In this document: positions 8,032 through 37,442 of the stretch, piece by piece | Position numbering within the stretch: the stretch's first letter is position 1 | How the letters are laid out: the number at the start of each line of letters is the position of its first letter | Source of the DNA: a virus | Strand: one strand, 5' to 3' | Virus record (IMG/VR): IMGVR_UViG_3300019890_000001 | Location: 1 to 40,189 of that record | Length of the DNA stretch: 40,189 bases | Made by a program: the position numbers and the translations under genes | Notes under the pieces: model-generated | Seen by the model: the letters and a program-made list of their open reading frames with translations, nothing else | Databases searched by the model: none | What the model was told of the DNA's origin: nothing

Positions 8032-9192
8032 ATGTCAACTTTTACTACTTCGGGTTGGAATCGAGCAAACATCCGAACCAAACTTCGGAATGTCGTTGGA
8101 ATGCCCAGCCAAGATCAATTGTCTGATGATTCGGCGAACGCCTATATCAACAATTATGGTACGTATCAGTTGCCACATGAACTTAAGATGCAAATCCAAA
8201 ACAACTTTTTGGACTTCAAAACCACACCTGGGGTTAACACATACCAGTTCCCAGGTTCATATTTAACAGACGGACCCGGAGCTTATGCCGATGGATTTCC
8301 GCTGATCTTTTACGAAGATCCAGACATTTTCTATCAAGACTGGCCACAACAATACAACGTTGATGCCATTGCAGCCGGAGATGGAGTCCAAAATCAATTC
8401 GCAGGCAACACTCAGGGCTTCCCGATCATAATTGGGACATTTTTCATTACTGATGGCTTCCAAGTGGTCCAAGACACAGGACTACCACAAGTGATTGGAG
8501 TCACAATTGCAACGGGTAATGGCGGCACATCATATTCGGGAGTTCTTGGCGCGATCCCAGTCGAAATGGGAACATTCACAGCAATTGGCGGGATCGGCGC
8601 CGCTAGTCCAGAATCTTTTGCAGACAATGGAGATGGTACTTTAACGGGCTCACAAGGCGGCACAGGTACTATAGACTATACTACTGGGGCTTGGACTTTA
8701 TCTTTCAACTCAGAGGTCGCAAATAGCCTTCTTATCCAATCTACATACAATGTGGTCGGCCTTGGTGTTCTTGCTGGAGATGGGTCTGGCACTTTGAATT
8801 ATGCGACAGGGGCTTTTTCAGTCACCTTTGATAGTGCTCCTGCTAGTACTTTAACGGTCTACTCAAAGTACATCGCTTATACCGGTAACCGTCCCCAGGG
8901 CGTCTTATTTTTTCAGAACCAGTTCCAACTTATGCCTGTGCCAGACCAAGTATATGCTATTCGGATGCAAGGATTTGTTTTACCAATCCAATTAGTCAAT
9001 GACACTGACATACCTGCCCAACCGGAATGGGGACCATTATATGCATATGGAGCGGCTTTGGAAGTCTTCGCAGACCGTGGAGACGTCGAGAATTATGACC
9101 GCTATTATCCGATCTTAAAGAAATTCGAAAACGTTGCGTTGTCTAGAACAATCCAACAATACACCCCAGAACAAGGCGTACCACGGTTTTAA
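8032..9192 (+). CDS. Head-to-tail adaptor / tail accessory protein with beta-module insertion
   Basis: A 386-residue protein. The N-terminal 90 residues (around YGTYQLPHELKMQIQNNFLDF) and the C-terminal 80 (YGAALEVFADRGDVENYDRY) resemble the helical parts of P22 gp4-type adaptors that dock under the portal. Between them are two copies of a beta module, GTIDYTTGAWTLSF (about 215) and GTLNYATGAFSVTF (about 258), of a type often inserted in phage structural proteins. The start follows AAGGAAAGAC. Confidence 0.72.
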   Translation: MSTFTTSGWNRANIRTKLRNVVGMPSQDQLSDDSANAYINNYGTYQLPHELKMQIQNNFLDFKTTPGVNTYQFPGSYLTDGPGAYADGFPLIFYEDPDIFYQDWPQQYNVDAIAAGDGVQNQFAGNTQGFPIIIGTFFITDGFQVVQDTGLPQVIGVTIATGNGGTSYSGVLGAIPVEMGTFTAIGGIGAASPESFADNGDGTLTGSQGGTGTIDYTTGAWTLSFNSEVANSLLIQSTYNVVGLGVLAGDGSGTLNYATGAFSVTFDSAPASTLTVYSKYIAYTGNRPQGVLFFQNQFQLMPVPDQVYAIRMQGFVLPIQLVNDTDIPAQPEWGPLYAYGAALEVFADRGDVENYDRYYPILKKFENVALSRTIQQYTPEQGVPRF

Positions 9193-9769: not shown

Positions 9770-11682
9770 TGGCAAGCGATCTCGAGCCTTTTCTGATTTC
9801 CGAGTTCAAGACTGGTATAAATACTTATTTGCAACCATGGATACGCCCAGCCGATGCTTTTCAGCCTTTAAAGAATGCTTATATCTATCGTGGTACTGTC
9901 AATAAGCGAGCTGGATATATCCAATATGGCAACGATGTGCCAATAGCCCTTGTCATTACAGGGATTTCTAAAGCAGCAAGTGCAGTTGTTACAGCATCAA
10001 ACGCATTCGACGCCGACGACTATGGCGTCACTACTATGACATTTTACAATGTAGCCGGAATGGTGGAAATTAACGGTTTGACCGGCACGGTTACTGCTTC
10101 TACCCCAACAACTTTTACCGTGAACATCAATAGCACTGGATTTACTGCTTATACTTCCGGCGGTATTGCGGTGGGTATACTTTTCAGCGGTATTGGAGAT
10201 CCCATCATGGGGATAATGCGATATATCAATGAATCAACCGGGGCCATATCACTAGTAATTGCTACGACCAGAACCCTTTTTCTATATGATCCAGGGACTG
10301 GGAATTATAATATAGTTGTTTCCCCTCCAACATTCACTGGAAACATCACCCAGTTCTTTAACTGGACCAATTGGCAAGCGTCTTCCGGGGCCTCTTCTTT
10401 CCTTTACTTCGTCAATAATAAAGACAACATCGGAACTTTCGATGGGACAACTTATGCTGCCTTGGTTCCTGTGATTGATGGCGCTGGGGAAACCATCACT
10501 ACCGCTTTAGATATTCAAGTCTATAAACAGAGATTATTGGTAATACGGCCGACTTTAAGCATAGATGGTGTACAAAACCAATCTATTTATTGGAGTAAGC
10601 AACAAAATCCAGCACAAGGCATGGGAGACACAAATTGGCGAGTAGATATAGCTGGAAATGGTGGATTCTTAGCAGCGCCGACTGGCGATATAATCCAATC
10701 GACCGAATTCATTCGAGATGTTTTAGTGGTCTTCTTCACCAATAGTACATGGATCTTCCGCTTCACTGGCAATCAATCTGATCCCTTCCGATGGGATAAA
10801 GTAAATAATAGCAAATCTACCAATGCTCCGTACGCAGCCGTGAACTATGATGAACGGTGTACTTCGATTGGCAATACGGGATTAATTGCATGCGATGGAG
10901 TGAATGTCCAGAGATACGACATTCCAATAATCGATTACTACGAAACAAACTTTAGCGAACAATATTATGCCCAATCATTTTCCCAGCGCTACGACAATTT
11001 AAACCAAGCATGGACTCTTTATGTATCCAATGATCCCGAAAACGTCTTTCCTCTTGTGGGTAATATTGCCCCTGGTTCTGATAGTGCGCTTGTTTACAAT
11101 TTTCTGGAAAATAGCTGGGCCACTTATACGTGGAGCATACCACTCACTTGTCTTGGTCTTTTTTATGATCAAACAGGGCTTACTTGGGCTTCTCTTAATT
11201 TATCGCCGCAGAATGAATGGGAAAACTTCCAACAACCCTGGAACGCATTCGGAGGACAAAAAGGAGCTCCCCTATTGCTAGCGGGAGATACGACGGGTCA
11301 CGTATATCGAATGGATACCGGAATAAATGATAATGGCACACCCATAGATGTAGACATTGTTACCACTAGATGGAACCCAATTCTAAAATTGGGGCAAAAA
11401 ACCCAGTTTTGTTATATCGATATTTATTATCGAATTATTTCTTCAGCAATAAGTGTAACTTTAGACTTCTACGTAGACAATACAACAGATACCGATCCGG
11501 CCGTTACTCGGACTTTAACTTTAGATGGACCAGTTGGATCTGGATACGCTTTCAAAAGAATTTATGTGAATCTCATCGGCGAATTTATTCAGATGGAAAT
11601 TGACCCCGATCAGAATTCTAACTTGCAGTTCGTCGGATTCATCATTTGGGCACGCCCAGCTGGAAGGTTGACGCCCTTCTAA
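9769..11682 (+). CDS. Tail hub / DNA stabilisation protein (P22 gp10-like)
   Basis: A 637-residue beta-rich protein. The N-terminus (FKTGINTYLQPWIRPADAF, then YRGTVNKRAGYIQYG) is typical of P22 gp10-type tail-hub proteins that plug the portal after packaging. Residues about 64-140 carry the FCCH-like module (LVITGISKAASAVVTAS). A beta-propeller-like region follows, with QNQSIYWSKQQNP and STWIFRFTGNQSDPF. The gene order after the adaptor agrees with P22. Confidence 0.82.
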   Translation: MASDLEPFLISEFKTGINTYLQPWIRPADAFQPLKNAYIYRGTVNKRAGYIQYGNDVPIALVITGISKAASAVVTASNAFDADDYGVTTMTFYNVAGMVEINGLTGTVTASTPTTFTVNINSTGFTAYTSGGIAVGILFSGIGDPIMGIMRYINESTGAISLVIATTRTLFLYDPGTGNYNIVVSPPTFTGNITQFFNWTNWQASSGASSFLYFVNNKDNIGTFDGTTYAALVPVIDGAGETITTALDIQVYKQRLLVIRPTLSIDGVQNQSIYWSKQQNPAQGMGDTNWRVDIAGNGGFLAAPTGDIIQSTEFIRDVLVVFFTNSTWIFRFTGNQSDPFRWDKVNNSKSTNAPYAAVNYDERCTSIGNTGLIACDGVNVQRYDIPIIDYYETNFSEQYYAQSFSQRYDNLNQAWTLYVSNDPENVFPLVGNIAPGSDSALVYNFLENSWATYTWSIPLTCLGLFYDQTGLTWASLNLSPQNEWENFQQPWNAFGGQKGAPLLLAGDTTGHVYRMDTGINDNGTPIDVDIVTTRWNPILKLGQKTQFCYIDIYYRIISSAISVTLDFYVDNTTDTDPAVTRTLTLDGPVGSGYAFKRIYVNLIGEFIQMEIDPDQNSNLQFVGFIIWARPAGRLTPF

Positions 11683-26294: not shown

Positions 26295-26498
26295 ATGCAT
26301 CTGAAAGATTATTTTGATAAGCGGTTCGACAGCATAGAAGGACTGGCTTATAAATGTGGGATCACGACATCATGTATATGGCATTATTTATCAGGACGCC
26401 GGAAGCCGTACCAAAAGACAGCCGAGCGCATCGAAATCGAAACCGGGGGCCGGGTAACCGTTCTTGAACAAAGGGACAAAGATGACCGCCGAAAATGA
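26295..26498 (+). CDS. Cro-like helix-turn-helix regulator, 67 aa
   Basis: Start at the ATG 26295 (MHLKDYFDKRFDSIEGLAYK); a GTG at 26250 would add 15 unlikely residues through the promoter. The helix-turn-helix is IEGLAYKCGITTSCIWHYLS (about 13-32), followed by GRRKPYQKTAERIEIETGG, the Cro/YdaS layout. It probably switches the divergent minus-strand recombination operon. It overlaps the next gene by 17 nt. Confidence 0.82.
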   Translation: MHLKDYFDKRFDSIEGLAYKCGITTSCIWHYLSGRRKPYQKTAERIEIETGGRVTVLEQRDKDDRRK

Positions 26499-26952
26499 AT
26501 TATTCACATCCGTCCGCCAGGCCGGGAAATATGCCCGAACAACAGGCCAAGCGCTATTTGTTGCCATTAAAAAGGGCGAATTGAAAGCCGAGAAACGAAT
26601 GGTTCTGAATAAACGGAACCGATGGATGGAGCAATGGTGTATCCGGAAAAGCGACATTGATGAATATCGAAAATCAAAATACAACCGCGACAAGCGCACC
26701 TTTGAAGGCGAAAAGTTATTCGATATCGAGCGCAATCGCTGGAGTGTATTGCACGCCTCCAAGGCTTTAAGCACAATGCTGGGCATCCCATACCCAGCAC
26801 ACAGATTGTATTACCAAATCCGCATGGGCTACATAAAAGCGTCTAAAAAAGCCAGTTCATGGATAATTGCCAAAGAAGAATTCGTTCGCATATATCATGA
26901 CGAATTAGCCCGTCTCCAGCAAGGATTAGCCAAGTCAATCACCCCTCCCTAA
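26482..26952 (+). CDS. DNA-binding protein with two excisionase-like winged helices
   Basis: Start at ATG 26482 behind AAAGGGAC. The 156-residue product carries two similar units: FTSVRQAGKYARTTGQALFV with IRKSDIDEYRKS (about 8-60), and WSVLHASKALSTMLGI with YYQIRMGYIKASKK and IIAKEEFVRIYH (about 83-140). Each resembles the MerR-like excisionase domain (helix-turn-helix, x-G-x-I/L-K-A wing, then a short helix). It may be a bivalent regulator or an accessory recombination factor. The 3' end overlaps the start of the structured RNA. Confidence 0.72.
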   Translation: MTAENELFTSVRQAGKYARTTGQALFVAIKKGELKAEKRMVLNKRNRWMEQWCIRKSDIDEYRKSKYNRDKRTFEGEKLFDIERNRWSVLHASKALSTMLGIPYPAHRLYYQIRMGYIKASKKASSWIIAKEEFVRIYHDELARLQQGLAKSITPP

Positions 26953-27300
26953 AGGGAGAGGCTTGTTGCAAGACATGCCTAGTTGACCAGACTAAGACTT
27001 GGAGCCCTGATAAGGCGTTGATAAGTCTACGTTAGGAGAGAATATATAGTCACTCTGGGATGCTTCTCCAGTCCCAGACACTGAGGTAAATGGTTAAACA
27101 GATGTAAGGGTTAAGTCAGTGCTGTTTACACAAAACCTCTCCATAACTTTGTCGAGGAGGCGGATTTGGAAACGTCAATCCAAATCCATTACCCGGGAAA
27201 CCGGAGTGCGGGTGACCGCAATGGGGGAGGAAACTCCCCTACTTTTAACACTTAACAGGGAGCAGCGCTTCCTCCCGGCCCTAAAGGGCCAGGTTTCCGC
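26941..27300 (+). ncRNA. Large structured non-coding RNA, class unassigned
   Basis: The 468-nt gap 26953-27420 has no credible gene but many stems. Pairs: 26945-26949/26954-26958; 26959-26962/26977-26980; 26995-27000/27023-27028; 27054-27060/27072-27078 (7 bp); 27079-27084/27116-27121; 27162-27169/27180-27187 (8 bp); CCGG-GAAA-CCGG at 27193-27204; GCGG-GTGA-CCGC at 27208-27219; GGGGAG-GAAA-CTCCCC at 27224-27239; 27258-27262/27272-27276; GGCCC-TAAA-GGGCC at 27277-27290. GNRA loops point to a folded RNA. A GACTA (26990-26994)/TAGTC (27047-27051) pair within AGTTGACCAGACTA ... ATATATAGTC recalls a group I intron P7, but P4-P6 is not convincing and no split gene surrounds it. Confidence 0.7.
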
Positions 27301-27420
27301 GCTGTCAATACGATGAAAGAATTAACCGAATCGATAAGAGAAAACCCAAAAAAATAATTTCCATACCAAAAATATTCTGTCGGTGTTACTTATCGAAGTA
27401 ATGATAAATAACAGTGAAAA

Positions 27421-35522: not shown

Positions 35523-35793
35523 TCGGATCAATCCCCCAAGTCAGATAACTAGTGCGGGCGGTAACGGCTCGCCTTTTGCGGGACAGGGACGTGTCGCCGT
35601 TCAAGCACCCCCACGCCCAAGACCATTCCCTTGGCCGTACCCATCAAGTGCCACCCAGGGCGCGGTTGGCGGGGCCGGAGGCCGGGGGATGGTTGCCGTT
35701 AGCTTGCCCCCTTACTATGGGCCTTTTAATATGTATTGTCCATACCAAGCGCCTAGACTGAATGGATTGCCAAACAACCCTTTAAGGTCATAA
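35509..35793 (+). CDS. Pro/Gly-rich protein, 94 aa
   Basis: A low-complexity 94-residue product (MPLPNRINPPSQITSAGG; PRPRPFPWPYPSSATQG; VGGAGGRGMVAV) with higher GC than its neighbours, probably disordered. TAATG overlap with rtcB downstream. A similar Pro-rich peptide is coded at 37905. Confidence 0.65.
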   Translation: MPLPNRINPPSQITSAGGNGSPFAGQGRVAVQAPPRPRPFPWPYPSSATQGAVGGAGGRGMVAVSLPPYYGPFNMYCPYQAPRLNGLPNNPLRS

Positions 35794-36956
35794 TGATTAA
35801 AACTTTTGGTATCGTTGAAGACGAAGTCTTAAAGCAAATGCAGGCCGCAATGGGAAAAAGCGATGCGTCATATGGTGTACTTTGCGCAGACAATCATTTA
35901 GGGTATTCTGTTCCTGTTGGTGGGGTATTGGCTTTGGAAGGCTCTATTTGCGTCAATGGTGTGGGATATGACATTGCATGCGGGAATAAGGTTGTCCGTT
36001 TGGATTGTGACCCTTTAGAAGTTAAGAAAAACATATATCGAAACATGAACGAGATCCAAAAGCACATAAGCTTTGGTGTGGGCAGAGTGAACAATGAAAA
36101 AGTGGATCATGAGATTTTTGATGACCCCATTTGGGAAAGTATCCCTTTGCTTTCCGGGATCAAGGACAAGGCTAGAGATCAACTTGGAACTGTTGGGTCT
36201 GGTAATCATTATGTTGATGTGTTTGTTGACGAAGCATCTAGAATATGGGTGGGAGTCCACTTTGGTAGTCGCGGCCTCGGTCATTCTATTGCAACGCATT
36301 TCGTTAAAAAGGGAGGGGGAGTAGATGGAGTACATGCAGACCCAGTTATTTTTAGCGAAAAGTCTGAACTTGGAGAGCAATATATTAGATGTATGGAGCT
36401 TGCTGGGCGATATGCTTACGCAGGGCGAGATTGGGTATGTCAACGAGTTGCGCAGATTCTTAGAGGTAACATCATCCAGGAAGTACATAATCACCACAAC
36501 TTTGCTTGGCGCGAGCGCCATTTTGATAGAGATATGTGGGTCGTCCGAAAAGGATCGACTCCTGCCTTTCCTGGTCAAAAAGGCTTTGTTGGAGGATCTA
36601 TGGGAGATATATCAGTCATACTCCGAGGAGTTGAATCACAAGCATCAAAACATGCCTTATATAGCACCATTCACGGTGCAGGACGTGCAATGGGAAGAAC
36701 TGCAGCAAAGGGAAAGCGAGACAAAAGAGGCAATATCACCAAGCCAGGACTTATTAGCCGAGACTCGATGCAGGATTGGATTAAAGCCAAGGGAGTCGAA
36801 CTCCGAGGAGCGGATGTGGATGAGGCTCCTCAGGCTTATAAACGTATCAAAGATGTTCTCGAAGCCCACAAAGAAACCATAGAAATTTTGCATACTCTGA
36901 ATCCGATTGGGGTTGCAATGAGTCCTGGTAACATTTATGATCCTTACAAAGATTAA
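35793..36956 (+). CDS. rtcB: RtcB 3'-phosphate RNA ligase
   Basis: GTP- and Mn-dependent ligase that joins RNA 3'-phosphate or 2',3'-cyclic phosphate to 5'-OH ends. The 387-residue length is close to E. coli RtcB (408). Motifs: DNHLGYSVPVGGVLAL, VNGVGYDIACGNK (metal ligands Asp60 and Cys63), TVGSGNHYVDVF, HFGSRGLGHSI, VHNHHNFAW, STPAFPGQKGFVGGSMGD, and STIHGAGRAMGR with the His that is guanylylated. All catalytic residues appear kept. Together with the Rnl2-type ligase it could reverse tRNA cleavage by host anticodon nucleases. Confidence 0.95.
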   Translation: MIKTFGIVEDEVLKQMQAAMGKSDASYGVLCADNHLGYSVPVGGVLALEGSICVNGVGYDIACGNKVVRLDCDPLEVKKNIYRNMNEIQKHISFGVGRVNNEKVDHEIFDDPIWESIPLLSGIKDKARDQLGTVGSGNHYVDVFVDEASRIWVGVHFGSRGLGHSIATHFVKKGGGVDGVHADPVIFSEKSELGEQYIRCMELAGRYAYAGRDWVCQRVAQILRGNIIQEVHNHHNFAWRERHFDRDMWVVRKGSTPAFPGQKGFVGGSMGDISVILRGVESQASKHALYSTIHGAGRAMGRTAAKGKRDKRGNITKPGLISRDSMQDWIKAKGVELRGADVDEAPQAYKRIKDVLEAHKETIEILHTLNPIGVAMSPGNIYDPYKD

Positions 36957-36968
36957 GGATTAAAAACT

Positions 36969-37442
36969 ATGGCAAGACTAGGATTTAAAGGACCGCATAC
37001 AGATGAAACTAAGAAAAAGATCAGCGCAACCTTGAAGGGAATTCATCCAGTTGGTTTTAAAAAGAAAATAATCTGTCCTAATTGCAATGAGCCTATGACA
37101 TGTCCCAATCTTCCGCGACATCACAAGTTATGTCTTCTTTTTTCTAAATACAAACACTTATTTCCATCTGCTAAAACATTGCGTCAATTTAAACATGCTA
37201 AAGTTTGTTTAAATTTAAGTTATAAAATAAATCTTGAGACTTATCTAGAAATGGTAGAATCACAGAAGGGATGCTGTAAAATATGTAAAAAAAAGCCCGA
37301 TAAGCGTCTATCAGTCGATCATTGTCATAAGAGCGGTCGAAATAGGGGATTGCTTTGTAGTAATTGTAACTTTATCTTAGGTTTATGTTGCGATGACATT
37401 AGTATTTTAGAATCTGCAATAAAATATTTAAAGGACTGGTAA
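36969..37442 (+). CDS. Endonuclease VII-like homing endonuclease with NUMOD3
   Basis: A 157-residue nuclease. The N-terminus GPHTDETKKKISATLKG is a NUMOD3 DNA-binding motif. A CPNC ... CLLF segment forms an extra zinc-like unit. The C-terminal domain has CKICKKKPDKRLSVDHCHKS, then GRNRGLLCSNCNFILG, the Endonuclease_7 His-Me fold with its four cysteines. AT-rich relative to rtcB, as expected for a recently inserted mobile gene. It lies 12 nt after rtcB and overlaps the next gene. Confidence 0.9.
   Translation: MARLGFKGPHTDETKKKISATLKGIHPVGFKKKIICPNCNEPMTCPNLPRHHKLCLLFSKYKHLFPSAKTLRQFKHAKVCLNLSYKINLETYLEMVESQKGCCKICKKKPDKRLSVDHCHKSGRNRGLLCSNCNFILGLCCDDISILESAIKYLKDW

Follow-up and report, generated by a model that had tools for sequence, protein, structure and literature searches.

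The region at 26934-27312 (+ strand) of the phage DNA analysed here, a stretch of 40,189 nucleotides that we call the window, is a 379-bp ORF-less element of the IscB type, and the RNA it encodes has a genuine structure that evolution has conserved; it belongs to the HEARO family. We consider it likely that the element is a non-autonomous, MITE-like derivative, which would be moved by a TnpA transposase acting in trans and whose guide RNA would be used by an IscB or IsrB supplied in the same way. What was supposed to be a new class of RNA has become a named guide RNA.

A guide RNA of the HEARO family

An Rfam scan of the whole window gave a full-length match to HEARO (RF02033, model positions 1-211) at 26934-27167 on the + strand, with a score of 137.5 bits (cut-off 83; E = 1.1e-28). 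HEARO, also called omega RNA, guides the Cas9-like nuclease IscB and the nickase IsrB (PMC9755519; PMC9581776; PMC12286853). An earlier note on this DNA had described a dense succession of hairpins belonging to no assigned class of RNA. As a description this was accurate. All the hairpins it mentioned are found, and the RNA of 26934-27311 folds far more stably than shuffled sequences do, at -143.1 kcal/mol compared to -112.0 +/- 5.8 (z = -5.37; 0 of 100 as good). The region is also, as proposed, neither a terminator array (2 terminator-like sites, with 2.4 expected) nor a credible gene; the longest internal ORF has 65 aa and no Pfam match, and coding read-through was rejected on the same grounds. 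The lack of a class is the part that has to be given up. Among the families suggested for checking, HEARO matched; none of the models for group I and group II introns, GOLLD, ROOL and OLE reached its gathering score anywhere in the window, or E <= 5 in 26900-27420. A GACTA/TAGTC pair had been likened to P7 of a group I intron; it does not belong to a group I core, and no group I intron model matched. The RNA is not an intron.

It had further been suggested that homologues be examined for compensatory changes, and these were found. Seven ORF-less copies were aligned with plain MAFFT and the Rfam structure was mapped onto them; 83.8% of the cells pair, and 25 of the 66 pairs have changed on both sides. 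The covariation score is 0.373 versus 0.160 in shuffles, none of 500 shuffles being as high, and sliding the partners by 1-3 columns brings pairing down to 31-40%. Helices 7 and 8 are paired in all sequences and use several pair types. Such changes do not prove a present-day function, because the constraint is common to autonomous ancestors as well. It is conceivable that selection no longer acts on the RNA and that it is a recent relic in which the ancestral structure persists.

Limits and parts of the element

The limits were drawn from L007, L011, L068 and other copies, which have both ends in common at unrelated sites. The feature is present where the earlier note had placed it (26941-27300), and its true limits are slightly wider, running from the left end GTCAATCACCCC up to the last base ahead of ATGA. 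All parts lie on the + strand. One of two hairpins with a TAAA loop, CTCCC-TAAA-GGGAG, lies near 26944-26960, and the other, GGCCC-TAAA-GGGCC, near 27277-27290. At the 3' end of the HEARO core (26934-27167) there is a 9-bp hairpin, GGATTTGGA/TCCAAATCC (27162-27187), a 100% complementary inverted repeat specific to this copy: it is absent in L007 and L011, and none was seen in the other copies compared. Three short hairpins follow at 27193-27239, namely CCGG-GAAA-CCGG (27193-27204), GCGG-GTGA-CCGC (27208-27219) and GGGGAG-GAAA-CTCCCC (27224-27239). They occupy the region where iscB begins in autonomous elements, and L007, L011 and L099 have counterparts of differing sequence.

A Shine-Dalgarno (SD)-like GGGAG (27258-27262) stands directly 5' of the right-end subterminal hairpin, CAGCGC-TTCCTCC..CTAAAG..GGTTTCC-GCGCTG (27263-27304). 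This inverted repeat, together with a fixed short motif on one side, ATGA, is the arrangement of IS200/IS605-type elements. The ATGA (27313-27316, within ATGAAA) comes directly after the element, 8 nt past the hairpin, and resembles both a target and a TAM. On the other side, the 16-nt flank AGCAAGGATTAGCCAA (26918-26933) is the presumed guide segment, judging by the known organisation of omega RNAs, and it includes an SD-like AAGGA at 26921-26925. The 3' third of the region is no separate new RNA but belongs to this transposon-like element, as its distal part and right end.

Recurrence in other phages

A DNA-pattern search found two phage contigs, L007 and L011, with the layout of the window: the left end GTCAATCACC, HEARO, short hairpins, the right-end hairpin TTCCTCC..CTAAAG..GGTTTCC and ATGAAA, in this order. 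Scanning for the right end and with the HEARO profile added further ORF-less copies (L028/L043, L068 and L122), a decayed one (L083, whose RNA scores 41.9 bits) and a cut one (L099), alongside about a dozen IscB-bearing elements. The HEARO cut-off is exceeded in six of the eight other records with an ORF-less copy. Except for the near-identical pair L028/L043, the flanks are different in each copy, and the copies are thus separate insertions. By pattern scan, the right-end hairpin motif is also present in 104 stretches of viral contigs. L004 has HEARO and no recognised right end.

Two further observations concern related ends. L099 has near-identical right ends at 8455-8484 (+) and 10100-10129 (-); HEARO sequence precedes only one of them, and the other seems to be without an omega RNA. 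L031 (near 13748), L050 (near 8055) and L092 (- strand) hold ORF-less elements of another kind, whose ends are similar and which have no HEARO match. Their layout is GTAAACAAC..CTRAAG..GCTTTTTGA followed by the right-end hairpin and ATGA, and they possibly derive from TnpB elements on the opposite strand.

The missing nuclease and transposase

Neither an IscB gene (PF14239) nor a gene for the Y1 transposase TnpA (PF01797) is present anywhere in the 40,189-base record, which is possibly not a whole phage, so that either gene may lie elsewhere in the phage genome. The absence of TnpA is expected for a non-autonomous copy. Both domains are also absent from the records of L007 and L011, and PF14239 from those of L028, L043, L068, L083, L122 and L099; as a control on the searches, five of the HEARO-bearing records gave a PF14239 match and two a PF01797 match. 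An IscB OMEGA system is recognised by an IscB gene (RRXRR/RuvC-HNH) lying in cis on the 3' side of the RNA, and the window has none there. Genome contigs held no exact match to DNA patterns taken from the left end or from the bases immediately 3' of HEARO, so no cellular autonomous parent was identified, and no IscB partner for the window element was found.

It may be argued that the element is a dead relic, left by an internal deletion in an IscB element and now in decay, which yields no useful transcript and is recognised by no nuclease. A record that lacks the partner gene would fit this, as would the extra hairpin of the window copy and the degraded RNA of L083. However, ORF-less copies in six other records still score above the HEARO gathering threshold, and the set as a whole, from unrelated phages and different sites, has many compensatory changes. 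We regard death of the element as the strongest of the competing explanations and nevertheless an unlikely one.

The record also holds features outside the element. Two free-standing HNH-type endonuclease genes, unrelated to IscB, are found at 670-1110 (HNH_3, just before the portal gene) and at 36969-37442 (endonuclease VII, with a NUMOD3 motif). At 35793-36956 lies the gene for a phage RNA ligase of the RtcB type (PF01139, E = 5e-64). About 0.9 kb past that gene, a tRNA-like stretch at 37820-37876 matches RF00005 with 38.7 bits, the match being confined to the D, anticodon and T arms (model positions 8-63 of 71); ARAGORN does not call it. It could be an acceptor-less tRNA decoy, or it could have a link to tRNA repair.

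How the element might spread

The mechanism that we favour draws on known OMEGA biology and is that of a non-autonomous element served in trans. Having kept its left end, its HEARO/omega RNA and its right-end hairpin, and being without iscB and tnpA, the element would be moved as single-stranded DNA by a Y1 (HUH) transposase supplied in trans, and would insert beside ATGA, which the bottom strand reads as TCAT. Transcription from the upstream phage gene would then produce an omega RNA with the flank AGCAAGGATTAGCCAA as its 5' guide. An IscB or IsrB from the host or from a co-resident element could load this RNA and cut or nick the empty site, in which the AGCAAGGATTAGCCAA flank is joined to ATGA(AA). 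Such cutting would favour retention of the element and its homing into sibling phage genomes that are without it. The AGCAAGGATTAGCCAA flank on the 5' side and ATGA on the 3' side stand where a guide and a TAM are expected, and ATGA fits NTGA, the TAM reported for DtIsrB (PMC9581776).

The same RNA might instead have been co-opted as a regulator, acting with a host IscB or IsrB against competitors or repressing the ribosome-binding region of the operon that it interrupts. The presumed guide does overlap the SD-like AAGGA beside the start codon, and guide-directed repressors derived from TnpB exist. No single locus or guide is conserved, however. Every copy is at a different site, as one would expect of a mobile element and less so of a fixed regulator, and we give co-option very little credence. 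An undescribed class of large phage RNA, as the earlier note proposed on the strength of the folding density, is refuted by the full-length RF02033 match and retains practically no probability.

Insertion at start codons

ATGA comes directly after the right end in 66 of 69 non-redundant sites. In the window, a likely ribosome-binding site lies 5' of the element and a start codon 3' of it, with the insertion falling exactly between the two. The upstream small gene (26482-26952, + strand) is an ORF with a weak HTH match (PF12728, below cut-off), and no relatives of it were found in the collections searched. With the flanks joined, the site would read ..CAAGGATTAGCCAA directly followed by ATGAAAG.., and the TGA of ATGA would end the HTH-like gene (..LAK, stop); with the element in place, its product is extended to ..LAKSITPP (stop). 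The upstream frame is open for 158 codons in the xxA-TGA frame, and from the target ATGA a putative 14-codon ORF, MKELTESIRENPKK, runs over 27313-27357 (+). L011 shows this xxA-TGA overlap at its site too. We considered whether the target ATGA generally combines the stop of one gene with the start of the next; the window and L011 fit this idea, which was rejected as a general rule. An exact search of viral contigs for the joined flanks, that is, for the empty site, gave no match.

We surveyed 60 refined non-redundant right ends (L007-L123 and the window), in which IscB elements are mixed with other IS200/IS605-like elements. In 44 of these 60 (73%) the ATGA begins a frame of 40 codons or more, compared to 36% when every ATGA of those contigs is counted (binomial p = 8e-9). 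An SD-like motif is enriched before the hairpin: 50% of the right ends have a stretch of at least 4 bases within the 12 nt that precede the hairpin foot, versus 8-27% for intervals ending at least 12 nt further upstream, and 27% versus 2-7% have one of at least 5 bases. From the hairpin foot to the ATG the gap is 7-9 nt in 37 of the 60. Several 5' flanks end in what appears to be a displaced Shine-Dalgarno sequence (L068 TTAAAGGAGATTTGT, L008 CGGAAGGAGATA, L060 CAGGAGGATCAGGTT), and SD-like sequence is enriched in these flanks in a small sample of 19 elements. Among 12 annotated records of plasmids and phages there are seven where the annotated start of the next gene is exactly the ATG of the ATGA that closes an IscB element; in two of these seven, the insertion site is the parA-parB junction.

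We hypothesize that the right end is a portable ribosome-binding site. If correct, this would explain how elements with ATGA as both target and TAM can enter start codons without silencing the gene. A broader suggestion, which we offer tentatively and think rather doubtful, is that phages carry a widespread class of IscB-less omega RNAs, as homing MITEs dependent on partners in trans that insert between the Shine-Dalgarno sequence and an ATGA start. The right end would bring a replacement Shine-Dalgarno sequence and a hairpin which, by looping out, places that sequence 7-9 nt from the start; the operon would still be translated, and the guide would be the displaced ribosome-binding region. The strength of the SD-like sequence in the right end shows no association with whether ATGA opens a long ORF (Fisher p = 1), which weakens an adaptive reading. 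The purine motif before the hairpin could serve transposition instead.

Implications and comparison with known systems

Intact omega RNAs travel in phages without a nuclease, which implies a trans-acting partner. ORF-less copies of HEARO, insertion beside ATGA or GTGA, and standalone omega RNAs were all reported earlier. As the RNA family is known too, we call fresh only the phage-borne ORF-less set and the statistics on start codons and right ends. Our literature search on IscB with standalone or non-autonomous omega RNAs found no direct paper among those it covered.

Three kinds of known system may be compared with the element. It resembles HEARO (RF02033) in sequence and structure over the full length, including GGGAUGCUUCnCCAGUCCC, the closing stems of the multi-branch and the CGAGG tail, and differs in having no IscB or IsrB gene downstream and in the added hairpin at 27162-27187. 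The closest plasmid matches are IscB (ISC, IS200/IS605-like) elements of Oceanisphaera pA and C. difficile pCd11_2 (L012, L013). They likewise have HEARO at the left in the same orientation, and L012 also has the right-end hairpin and then ATGA. In these plasmids iscB begins about 40 nt past the HEARO match, whereas in the window HEARO is followed only by three hairpins and the right end. Finally, like MITE- or PATE-type derivatives of IS200/IS605 elements, it has retained its ends, lost its genes and inserted at several unrelated sites; unlike them, it retains a complete, covarying guide RNA.
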